Origin: Methanoregula sp.
GTDB taxonomy: Archaea > Halobacteriota > Methanomicrobia > Methanomicrobiales > Methanospirillaceae
NCBI GenBank assembly: GCA_030694985.1
Contig: JAUYTV010000025.1
Coordinates: forward strand, 1-64,000
Length of the DNA: 64,000 nt
Direction: 5' to 3'
In this document: positions 4,868-11,494 of the stretch, piece by piece
How positions within the stretch are numbered: the first letter of the stretch is position 1
Layout of the letters: every line of letters begins with the position of its first letter
Position numbers and translations under genes: made by a program
The notes under the pieces: model-generated
Databases searched by the model: none
What the model was told of the DNA's origin: nothing
Seen by the model: only the letters and a program-made list of their open reading frames with translations

Positions 4868-5035
4868 TCCCGGTGCCCGTTCCTGTCAACAATAGCCAAA
4901 CGCCCCACGTTCATCAACCCAGATTGGAACGTTACGCGGGAGACCCGGTCAACCACCTTGTTTCAGCGGGGACAGAGTGGGATCTGCCTTCCGGTTTTGG
5001 AGTAGTTGAATCATTTCCGGTCCGCTTATTGTATC
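4868..5035. repeat. Dispersed intergenic repeat, copy D
   Basis: Shows GGTGCCCGTTCCTGTC, CCAAACG, GAACGTTACGCGGGAGACCC, TTTCAGCGGGGACAGAGTGG, ATCTGCCTTCCGGTTTTGGA and the tail TTTCCGGTCCGC. It is the longest copy seen, and it ends some 25 bases before the stop codon of the truncated esterase. Confidence 0.75.
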
Positions 5036-5059: not shown

Positions 5060-6151
5060 CTATCCGCTCTTAACGCTCGGGACTGCACCAATATCGAGAT
5101 GCTGGCCACTCTCCTTGTTATATCGCGGCCAGGTGTTAACCATCTGGAACGAAGAGGCCGGCCATGGGGTAGCATTGGTAATCTCCCGAAAATTCAGTTT
5201 TCGCATCTGTGTAATCGCATCCGGGCCGGAGTATCCGAGGCTTTGTGCGAACGTTTCCACGAGTCGCTCGGCACCCCCTTTGGAATAGAGGGCATCAATT
5301 TCCGCACCGGTTGTCCAGAACGTACCGCTCTCGAAAATTGCCTGCTGGTAGAGCCCCTTGCTCTGCGGGCTGACCAGATGGATAAGAATACTCTCTCCAC
5401 CTGCTGATTGCCCGAAGATGGTCACCCGGGACGGGTCGCCGCCGAACTGCCCGATATTCCGCTGGACCCACTGCATGGCAGCAATCTGGTCAAGGAGCCC
5501 GTAATTGCCAGAAACGTTATACGGGGATTCCGTATCGAGCTGGGGATGGGCGAGGAACCCGAGAGCGCCAACCCGGTAATTGGTAGTGACGACAACGACT
5601 CCCTTCTCTGCAAGAGCTGTGCCGTTATAGAGCGGCATGGAGCCGGCAATCTTTCCGAATGCCTCGCCATAGAAAAAGACCATGACCGGCAACTTCTCAT
5701 CGGAATTTTTTGCAGGAGTCCAGACATTGAGATACAGGCAGTCCTCGCTCATATTCAGGGTGGGATCAGCAGCGGCCGGTTGGGGGCAGGCCGGTGAATA
5801 CATCTTTGTTTCCTTCACGCCTTCCCATGACCTGACCGGTGCGGGCGGTCTCCACCGAAGCTCACCGGTCGGGGGAGCTGCAAACGGGATCCCATTGAAA
5901 ACCCGGAGCCCGTCCTGCTGTAATCCTAAGACCGAGCCGGCGTCAGTCTTGACAACGCTGGAACCTGTTTTCACAGGACCGGTATCCGGTCCCTTCTGGG
6001 TACAACCAGCCAGGAAAGAAAATCCGGTAAGAATCAGGCAGATTACCAGAACACAACTTGACTTTACACGATTGCATACGATTTCATCTCCCTCTGCTGT
6101 CAGACAAAAATGCCAGAGTTCCGTTAAATGGCAGATTGTTAAGACATCCAC
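5060..6151 (-). pseudogene. Internally deleted carboxylesterase, probable decaying paralogue
   Basis: It aligns along its length with the intact type B carboxylesterase at 8762-10315 but lacks about 175 residues: ATPWPASSFQMV jumps directly to NTWPRYNKESGQHLDIG, equivalent to joining residue 314 to 490 of the intact protein. That removes the catalytic acid (NTDEGS) and histidine (FHGEEL). The oxyanion-hole HGGSF is also replaced by YGEAF, though the nucleophile motif GQSAGGES remains. The start looks damaged as well. The frame opens with a GTG at 6151 well upstream of the lipoprotein signal (ending LAGC), while the ATG at 6087 with a purine-rich site before it is out of frame by one base. The frame is still open, so a non-enzymatic lipoprotein is possible, but loss of esterase activity is the simplest reading. 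Confidence 0.8.
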
Positions 6152-6300
6152 CTTCTCTTTGTCATCTGGATCAGACCAGAGAACTTTTGTGAATATAACG
6201 CGACAATATTTTTAACGCTATGTATCTGACATTTTCCCAGCCGCCCTTCATTTCTGGTATTGTGCAGTCATTTCCGATGTTCACTGTCTCAAAATCTCCG

Positions 6301-6430
6301 GTTACTGCCCGTCCCGTTGCCCGCTCATGTACCTGCAATTTTCAAACGGCTTGAAACGACCGGCTCAAGACCGGGCCGTTACGTGGAGACCCGGCCAGTC
6401 CCCCCGGGTTTCAGCTGGGACGGTCGGGTT
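6301..6430. repeat. Dispersed intergenic repeat, copy E
   Basis: Shows TTGCCCGCTCATGTACCTGC, CAAACGGC, GACCGGCTCAAGACCGGGCC, GTTACGTGGAGACCCGGCCA and CCGGGTTTCAGCTGGGACGG. It sits in the 370-bp gap between the truncated esterase and the small membrane protein; the rest of that gap contains no gene I can support. Confidence 0.75.
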
Positions 6431-8761: not shown

Positions 8762-10315
8762 ATGATTCGCAACTATCGATTCCCCCTTAGTCTTATAATG
8801 ATTGTACTTCTTCTTGCCGGGTTCATTCTTCTCACGGGATGTACAAGTACGGGTACGGATTCCGGTGTTGTCAGGACAGAATCCGGCCCGGTCTCCGGAA
8901 CCTCGGGAGATGGCATCCGGGCATACCTCGGCATACCTTATGCAGCGCCCCCAACCGGTGACCTCCGGTGGAGACCTCCGGTACCAGCCCAGCCATGGCA
9001 GAGTACACGGAAGACAACCGCATATGGGCCGGCATGCCCGCAGGTTGTCCAGTCAGATAGATCTTCAGAAGGCCAGCCGGGGAATATGAGCGAGGACTGC
9101 CTGTACCTGAACCTCTGGACCCCGGCCCTGAGCCCGGATGAAAAACTTCCGGTCATTGTGTTCATCCACGGCGGCTCGTTCCTGCAGGGAGGGGGGTCCA
9201 TACCTCTCTATAACGGGACTAACCTTGCAAAGAAAGGCGTTGTCCTCGTCAACCTGAATTACCGCCTGGGAGCGCTCGGCTTTTTGGCCCATCCGGCCCT
9301 TGCAAACGAATCCCAAAAGAACACTTCCGGCAACTATGGATTGCAGGATCAGGCTGCTGCCCTCAAATGGGTAAATAAAAATATCGCGGGATTCGGAGGG
9401 GATCCTGACCGCATCACGATCTTCGGGGAATCTGCCGGGGCTACAAGTGTTCTTGTTCATCTCGCGGGCAACGACACGAGAGGGCTTTACCGGCAGGCGA
9501 TTGTCGAGAGCGGGCCCTTATGGACAAACGGGTCTGAGATAAATATCATCAGCTCGAAGGCAGAAGCCGAACAGTATGGTGCAGAGTATGCAAAAAGCCT
9601 CGGGTATGAGGGCCCGGATGCGATCAGGAATATGCGGAGCCTGGATGCCTGGACTCTTGTCAATGCAACACCCGATCCGGCATCGACATTCTGGAAGGTC
9701 CACACGCTCCGGTTCAAACCAACCATTGACGGGTGGCTGATCCCTGAGGACCCGGAGAAGATCTTTTATGAGAACCGGCAGAACCCGGTTCCCCTTATTA
9801 TCGGGACCAACACCGATGAAGGTTCAACGCTCGCTGTAAATACCGGGCTGAACGTTTCCCAGTACAAACAATATATCCATGAACATTTCGACGAGTACGC
9901 CCCGGAAGTCTTAAAAAAATATCCGGCCACAACTTCAGAAGAAGTCCAGCTCCAGATGAAGCGGATCATGACGGATGTTGATTTCAGCGCAGCGGCAAAG
10001 TTTGTTGCAGGTTCACAATCGAAGTTGAACCCTAACACATACCTGTACCGGTTCTCATATGTGATGCTGCCGGACAGTTCGCTTGGCGCATTCCATGGCG
10101 AGGAACTCTTCTTTATCTTCCGCCCCACCTCGATTGTGCCGGATCCGGCGGGTGCCCGGGTCTCCGATATGATGATGGATACCTGGGTGCGGTTTGCAAA
10201 GAATGGCGATCCGGCTGGTGGCAATGTCACGTGGCCGCAATACACCCTTGAAAAGGGCCAATACCTTGACATCGGGATAAACCCGGTTGTGAAGACCGGG
10301 TACTTATTTTTTTAA
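8762..10315 (+). CDS. Type B carboxylesterase lipoprotein
   Basis: This 517-residue exported lipoprotein starts with a hydrophobic signal ending in LLTGC (lipidation at Cys27). It carries the full type B carboxylesterase fold. The EDCLYLNLWTP signature is at about 111-121, the oxyanion-hole HGGSF at 136-140, and the nucleophile elbow GESAG at 222-226 (Ser224). The acid is in NTDEGS (Glu353) and the histidine in FHGEEL (His445), so all catalytic residues are present. It would act outside the cell membrane on an unknown ester. A pseudogene-like paralogue is at 5060-6151 on the other strand. Confidence 0.92.
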   Translation: MIRNYRFPLSLIMIVLLLAGFILLTGCTSTGTDSGVVRTESGPVSGTSGDGIRAYLGIPYAAPPTGDLRWRPPVPAQPWQSTRKTTAYGPACPQVVQSDRSSEGQPGNMSEDCLYLNLWTPALSPDEKLPVIVFIHGGSFLQGGGSIPLYNGTNLAKKGVVLVNLNYRLGALGFLAHPALANESQKNTSGNYGLQDQAAALKWVNKNIAGFGGDPDRITIFGESAGATSVLVHLAGNDTRGLYRQAIVESGPLWTNGSEINIISSKAEAEQYGAEYAKSLGYEGPDAIRNMRSLDAWTLVNATPDPASTFWKVHTLRFKPTIDGWLIPEDPEKIFYENRQNPVPLIIGTNTDEGSTLAVNTGLNVSQYKQYIHEHFDEYAPEVLKKYPATTSEEVQLQMKRIMTDVDFSAAAKFVAGSQSKLNPNTYLYRFSYVMLPDSSLGAFHGEELFFIFRPTSIVPDPAGARVSDMMMDTWVRFAKNGDPAGGNVTWPQYTLEKGQYLDIGINPVVKTGYLFF

Positions 10316-10485: not shown

Positions 10486-10825
10486 AGATGTACCTTCTCT
10501 GTTGTTGGTGTGACATATGATAAATGGCGATCTTTTTATTCAGACTGATGTGGCGGAATAACTTCTAAGAGACTATCGCTGGCAGAACCGGTGTCCAATC
10601 CACTTTTGTGTTGGTTTCTTAACGATATGTAAAATCCATGTTCTCCTGCATCACAAAAAGCACCCTCTTTCCCATCCGGTCGTGGGCCAGCCCCTATGTC
10701 ACACCGGTCAGGCAATCCATCAGAGGGTGTGGAAGAAATTTTTTATCGTATATTTTATATATCAGCCAGTTAGAGGTTCATCAGGTAAAGCCTCCACATA
10801 CAATCAGATTTTAAAAAGTGTCAAC

Positions 10826-11494
10826 ATGGCAACATACGTTCTCGTTCATGGCGGCAACATGTCGACAGAAACATGGAACCGGCTTACCATTGGAGATCCT
10901 GTTCATACAAAAGACGGCAACATGGGGGCCGGATACTGGGATGGGACCGTTTCAGCGCTCACGGCACATAACCATCGAGTTTTTGCACCGTCCCTCATGG
11001 ACGAGAATCGCTGTCACCTGACCGATCATATCGGGCAGGTCTGTTCGTTGATAATTGAAAATGACTTACGGGATGTTATTCTTGCTGGGCACAGTTATGG
11101 CGGGATGGTGATAACCGGTGTTGCGGATAAAATCGCTGACAGGATCAGGCGTCTTGTATATCTTGATGCCGCATTGCCAGACTCCGGACAATCCCTGTAT
11201 GACCTTCTTAATCTGGGACTGACTGCTTCATCTGACAGCCGGCCTTTTTTGCCGGAACCGGTTCTGCCGTACATAGAAAAACTTGAGTTTGACCCGGCAA
11301 ACATACAACCACTGCCAAAAACCTACATTCTCTGCACAAAAAGCGAATTTAAAGATGTAACCAGTGTAGCCCGTCAAAAAATTGCTGCGGCAAAAAAAGG
11401 TTGGACCTACATTGAGTTGCCATCATCCCATGTGCCAATGGCTGATATGCCGGACGAGTTTTACCAGTTGATGCTCGACGCTGCGAAAAAATAA
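10826..11494 (+). CDS. Alpha/beta hydrolase, salicylate-esterase-like
   Basis: From the ATG at 10826 the product has 222 residues and starts with the typical first strand ATYVLVHGGNMSTETW (oxyanion region HGG). The nucleophile elbow is GHSYGG, and the late ELPSSHVPMADMP supplies a catalytic histidine in the usual place. This compact form, without a large cap, resembles the plant methylesterase and EstC-like branch of the alpha/beta hydrolases. An upstream frame opening at 10682 is unlikely to be coding, because a TATA-like TATTTTATATA lies inside it at about 10750. The substrate is unknown, and the gene stands alone. Confidence 0.82.
   Translation: MATYVLVHGGNMSTETWNRLTIGDPVHTKDGNMGAGYWDGTVSALTAHNHRVFAPSLMDENRCHLTDHIGQVCSLIIENDLRDVILAGHSYGGMVITGVADKIADRIRRLVYLDAALPDSGQSLYDLLNLGLTASSDSRPFLPEPVLPYIEKLEFDPANIQPLPKTYILCTKSEFKDVTSVARQKIAAAKKGWTYIELPSSHVPMADMPDEFYQLMLDAAKK

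Follow-up and report, generated by a model that had tools for sequence, protein, structure and literature searches.

The esterase frame and its surroundings

The window analysed here, namely the whole stretch of 64,000 nucleotides from a Methanoregula sp. contig, carries on its reverse strand a 363-codon open frame read from GTG 6151 (5060-6151), which was recognized from the listing of open frames and a match to PF00135 as what remains of a lipoprotein gene for a type-B carboxylesterase. The match (E 9.5e-88 in a Pfam scan) extends over profile positions 2-287 of 515 only and is not a full-profile domain match; the frame is a type-B carboxylesterase without its C-terminal part. Two members of the type-B carboxylesterase/cholinesterase family, fumonisin B1 esterase (8s6d) and p-nitrobenzyl esterase (1qe3), match residues 63-278 and 66-282 of the product, respectively, and have in common with it the GxSxG nucleophile motif. 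The latter is intact as GQSAGG, with Ser249 at 5405-5407 on the reverse strand as located by motif scan, and the initial annotation was right that the serine motif survives. In contrast to both enzymes, the product is devoid of the region of the catalytic acid and histidine, bears Glu in place of the oxyanion Gly, and has a frameshifted start. Structures were predicted for an intact relative and for the shortened protein, with alignments A1 and A2 of 22 sequences each; at mean pLDDT values of 48.4 and 46.2, they are too poor to judge. A literature search on carboxylesterases of Methanoregula, at the level of abstract openings, yielded only a paper on an insecticide.

An intact but more distant paralogue of the HGG type lies on the forward strand at 8762-10315, as established by the listing of open frames, sequence identity and PF00135. 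The surrounding DNA also harbors a dispersed intergenic repeat of approximately 85-100 bp (672-772, 1694-1778, 2507-2557, 6318-6401, and about 4868-5009), for which fifteen matches were found in the genome, ten of them within 12 kb on another contig (G000:C17:23407-34633). Related copies, including that of 4868-5009, are found near the esterase in genomes G029 and G001. At the contig start, within 1-600, inspection by eye revealed a repeat in direct orientation with a length of roughly 250-300 bp.

Lesions relative to full-length relatives

Compared with its full-length relatives, the gene possesses three lesions, namely a 2-bp deletion, the replacement of YGG by YGE, and the loss of 174 codons, all of which are disabling changes of the sort that distinguishes a pseudogene from its intact counterparts. 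The native ATG (6075-6077, reverse strand), which was assigned by aligning the 5' end with the start codon of the relatives and is preceded at about 10 nt by GGGAG, is now out of frame, confirming the earlier remark that the preferred ATG and its ribosome site had fallen out of register. The responsible 2-bp deletion resides in the signal-peptide codons at 6059-6062 (reverse strand; the exact position is ambiguous by a base or two) and was revealed by blastn against L005 and by multiple alignment with L006, L007 and L005. Since it occurs just after the native ATG, reading from 6077 terminates after 44 codons, at 5943, and the out-of-frame start is counted here, differently from its earlier treatment, as a lesion in its own right.

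The cysteine of the lipobox LAGC, Cys50 when counted from the GTG (6002-6004, reverse strand, by alignment), remains in the GTG frame, whereas the native ATG does not, and no in-frame ATG, GTG or TTG exists upstream of this cysteine except GTG 6151, the next in-frame start being situated at residue 60, beyond the lipobox. At GTG 6151 itself, a simple pattern search detected no ribosome site. The frame is open because the upstream DNA happens to be open as far as this GTG. To say that the paralogue kept its frame is therefore misleading, and the open frame is a leftover, accidental at its 5' end and not maintained. The adjoining 6152-6423 (reverse strand) comprises the leader 5' of the gene together with a copy of the intergenic repeat, as delimited by alignment to the G029 and G001 loci; one unbroken alignment runs from the gene interior through this segment, with 81% identity to G029 and 79% to G001, in the latter case only as far as 6412. 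Residues 59-98 are slightly nearer to L006 than to L005, which, together with the course of the leader alignment, makes some mosaicism at the 5' end of the gene possible.

The leader was also encountered elsewhere. The esterase signal peptide and lipobox occur without the remaining esterase at L076:1932-2123, L080:1513-1623 and L079:1688-1813, in frames of 408, 273 and 121 codons (the last with a stop), as if this leader were common to other lipoproteins. Moreover, N-terminal frameshifts attributable to decay or read errors are present in L027/L035 (near residue 88), L077 and L078. In each of the two G006 copies, one frameshift coincides with a stretch of C (8 and 6 C, respectively), and a further one in L078 lies just after the start. 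The cases were examined as possible recurrent decay; the C-run sites in both G006 copies may be read errors.

The second lesion affects the oxyanion motif, where Gly163 has been changed to Glu (5663-5665, reverse strand), Gly being found at this position in all 24 other aligned copies. The initial annotation had described HGG turning into YGE, which proved to be an artefact of comparison with a distant paralogue. A scan of 34 family frames, some of which are overlapping pieces of one copy, returned GG in all 31 other frames with a pattern match (two had none), with the preceding residue being Tyr in 22, His in six and Phe in three; the solved relative 8s6d has YGG too. YGG is thus the usual form in the clade and the HGG neighbor a distant paralogue, and only one oxyanion residue, Gly163, has changed. 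G163E is one of three substitutions, along with P108S and G298V (BLOSUM scores of -2, -1 and -3, respectively), at sites that are invariant in the 24 other copies. In this respect, the gene is level with L019 among the 25 copies, and more such changes were counted only in the distant L003, L028 and L029.

The third and largest lesion is one deletion that preserves the frame and takes out 522 bp, or 174 codons, corresponding to residues 309-482 of L005 in the blastn comparison; the earlier estimate, residues 315-489 of the intact copy, was accurate to within a residue or so. The junction at 5128-5134 (reverse strand) was determined from two overlapping blastn pieces and the flanks of seven relatives, and the 27 residues behind it are 81% identical to the C-terminus of L005. 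The letters ACCTGGC, where the two sides meet, are similar to each end of the block in L005, and this short microhomology suggests a deletion for which slippage or end-joining, guided by some 7 bp of similarity, may have been responsible. Glu353 and His445 of the 8762-10315 copy have their aligned counterparts inside the deleted block, and the product accordingly has neither catalytic acid nor histidine. The removal of both had been claimed before; the claim stands as to the positions, although the acid is usually not Glu, the residue aligned with Glu353 being Asp in seven of ten aligned intact relatives.

Relatives and occurrence of the shortened form

The nearest relatives, L005 (85%), L004/L032 (81%), L008 (81%) and L009 (80%), are all full length. 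Over the retained part, L005 and L004, which is the same as L032 (Methanoregula sp. UBA276), are 85% and 81% identical to the shortened product, and L005 shares its lipobox and C-terminal tail; both differ from it in having the 174-residue block, a start ATG in frame and YGG unaltered. Within the same genome, there are two other family copies, G000:C55:20033 (67%, 511 aa) and the forward-strand neighbor at 8762-10315 (58%, 517 aa). The best intact comparison is hence offered by L005, or in the same genome by G000:C55, rather than by the neighbor at 8762.

Simple decay was to be considered refuted, according to the initial annotation, by orthologues of the same shortened form conserved across species under purifying selection, and such forms were sought in 108 family genomes, the own genome included. 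Matches were obtained in 33 of them, with 51 long matches counted by hand, that is, the gene itself and 50 others, two of which belong to the same genome. The shortened form was absent from these other matches, all 50 carrying the deleted block. The 24 other aligned copies, every one of which keeps 171-174 of the 174 residues, account for 22 of them, and the block by itself served as a direct query against the remaining 28 (29.7% to 78% identity, at least 167 residues matched). The block is also present in the two aligned copies left over, L008 from another family and L034 from a named record.

The esterase family is patchy and often multi-copy, with matches in 21 of 39 genus genomes, again counting the own genome. 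No conserved gene order around the gene was observed among nine loci compared. In L034 and L068, the esterase is accompanied at a distance of approximately 0.7-1.2 kb by a hydrolase 48.9% identical to the product of the 7820-8623 gene, L072 carries a weaker match (34%) to that hydrolase near its esterase, and in L066 a hydrolase with 58% identity to 10682-11494 is located about 5 kb away from the esterase. Among further members of the family, L012:1-2448 (reverse strand) encodes an 816-aa frame combining a full-length carboxylesterase with a calcineurin-like phosphoesterase (PF00135 and PF00149), L010 and L015 are similarly long frames with ends like that of L012, and in L075:879-2492 (reverse strand), which reads through in a single frame, about 30 residues behind the CPQ motif appear to be duplicated.

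Selection on the branch and timing of the probable loss

In a tree of the 25 copies, the gene is placed beside L005 and L009, with support of 69 for the pairing of L005 with L009 and of 87 for the trio against the rest. A two-ratio codon model of 18 copies and the 268 codons before the deletion gave a branch omega of 0.148 (upper limit about 0.28) against 0.184 elsewhere, which is no different from the background (p = 0.46), while omega = 1 on this branch was rejected (p = 2e-10). Inclusion of the signal peptide and tail afforded an omega of 0.158, with omega = 1 again rejected (p = 6e-11). The low omega and the rejection of neutrality imply that the death of the gene was recent. In these branch tests, the full-length L006 (G029:C2:1184587) displayed a branch omega of 0.66 (p = 0.0017 versus one ratio), and it was not singled out by the site-class model.

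The timing was further narrowed by a mixture model in which sites were divided into classes and the branch could turn neutral at some point along its length. The optimum was neutrality over about 5% of the branch; a share of 15% was rejected at the 95% level (2dlnL 4.08), and 0% was not clearly rejected (2dlnL 2.78). When eight intact control branches were treated likewise, the optimum was zero for five, 2% for L006 and L011, and 5% for L007. Since a control thus reaches the same value, 5% is not distinctive, and the value of the fit lies in its upper bound; because zero neutral time is likewise not excluded, the substitution data date the loss and do not prove it.

The initial annotation held that a decaying gene usually loses its frame, an argument that loses its force at this age. 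Random point changes in the gene create a stop in 3.7% of cases. The branch amounts to 0.79 neutral changes per codon, and the gene would have escaped a stop with a probability of about 0.63 if 5% of the branch was neutral and 0.25 if 15% was. A deletion keeps the frame with a one-in-three chance, which is unremarkable. Taken together, these figures render the open frame unremarkable after decay, and a survivor without a stop is to be expected.

The gene at 5060-6151 is accordingly best explained as an ordinary young pseudogene of a probable surface esterase in a methane-producing archaeon, which in all likelihood worked for most of its history and was lost recently. Its ancestor would most likely have been an active lipid-anchored type-B carboxylesterase equipped with the nucleophile Ser, YGG, an acid that was probably Asp, and His, and it would have remained under purifying selection since the split from the nearest known relatives. 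Function would then have been lost recently through the 2-bp deletion in the signal peptide, the 522-bp microhomology deletion and Gly163Glu, acquired in an order that we infer rather than read from the alignment, and a functional protein would presumably no longer be produced. Of the two possibilities left by the initial annotation, young decay or another use for the shortened lipoprotein, the former is supported by the constraint, the uniqueness of the deletion and the age, and the latter receives little support.

Against uniform decay speaks the distribution of the changes. In simple counts, scored from the majority of four relatives, residues 59-272 have accumulated two nonsynonymous versus 21 synonymous changes on this branch and residues 273-339 eleven versus five, so that 11 of the 13 nonsynonymous changes adjoin the deletion; a permutation scan of this clustering gave p = 0.001 for the gene and 0.10 to 0.67 in the four relatives. 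The skew, together with an open frame that has its lipobox in frame, would suit a shortened lipoprotein that is still made and used, for instance as a non-catalytic binding protein, the deletion being old and residues 59-272 selected. When site variation was allowed for in a codon model, however, the two-part split reached 2dlnL 6.28 with a breakpoint chosen after looking, and in a scan the branch scored 6.16, with six of eight intact control branches scoring higher. The clustering beside the deletion was consequently rejected as evidence for a retained N-terminal half and given little weight, yet it keeps this reading from being zero. With the native start frameshifted, the short form confined to this one gene among the long matches, and a large share of the hydrolase domain's second half deleted, core strands of this fold included, such a use is improbable. 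A more specific version, in which the C-terminal deletion is old, residues 59-272 are kept as a non-catalytic surface lipoprotein and residues 273-339 drift, is slightly less probable again, and would call for putative translation from GTG 6151 or from a start missed here. Animals do use inactive cholinesterase-like proteins; neuroligins and the C-terminal domain of thyroglobulin are inactive members of the same superfamily that keep the complete fold, of which the product of 5060-6151 is missing a large part. Import of residues 273-339 by recombination was dismissed as well, for third-position differences to L005 are 0.23-0.28 there and 0.20-0.33 elsewhere, without excess.

An artefact of sequencing, assembly or strain mixing, such as a 2-bp error or a deletion in part of the population, ranks a little lower still, as a long shot. 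The genome is an assembly of 58 contigs, one genome of the species was compared, an error at the 2-bp site may have occurred, and the C-run frameshifts of the G006 copies may exemplify such errors. Yet the 2-bp site is not a homopolymer run, the similarity of about 7 bp between the deletion ends is probably too little for assembly collapse, the residues behind the junction match the C-terminus of the same orthologue, and eight of nine neighboring genes scanned each match some Pfam profile nearly end to end without a change of frame; moreover, the enzyme would still be expected to be inactive on account of G163E and the deletion. Least credible is positive selection or a change of specificity in residues 273-339 of an intact ancestor followed by recent death, where a local amino-acid excess without synonymous excess is countered by the unexceptional codon-model result and by the position of G298V at a site identical in all 24 other copies.

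Implications

If the shortened protein were in use after all, it would represent an unusual cholinesterase-family half-domain in archaea. As a young pseudogene, the 5060-6151 gene provides a worked example that an open frame persisting after a large deletion is no evidence of kept function, and it illustrates that the set of residues judged missing depends on which relative is taken as the closest. An age of about 5% of the branch, as estimated here, explains why the frame is still free of stops. For the organism, with two other intact family copies in the genome, the loss may be tolerable.
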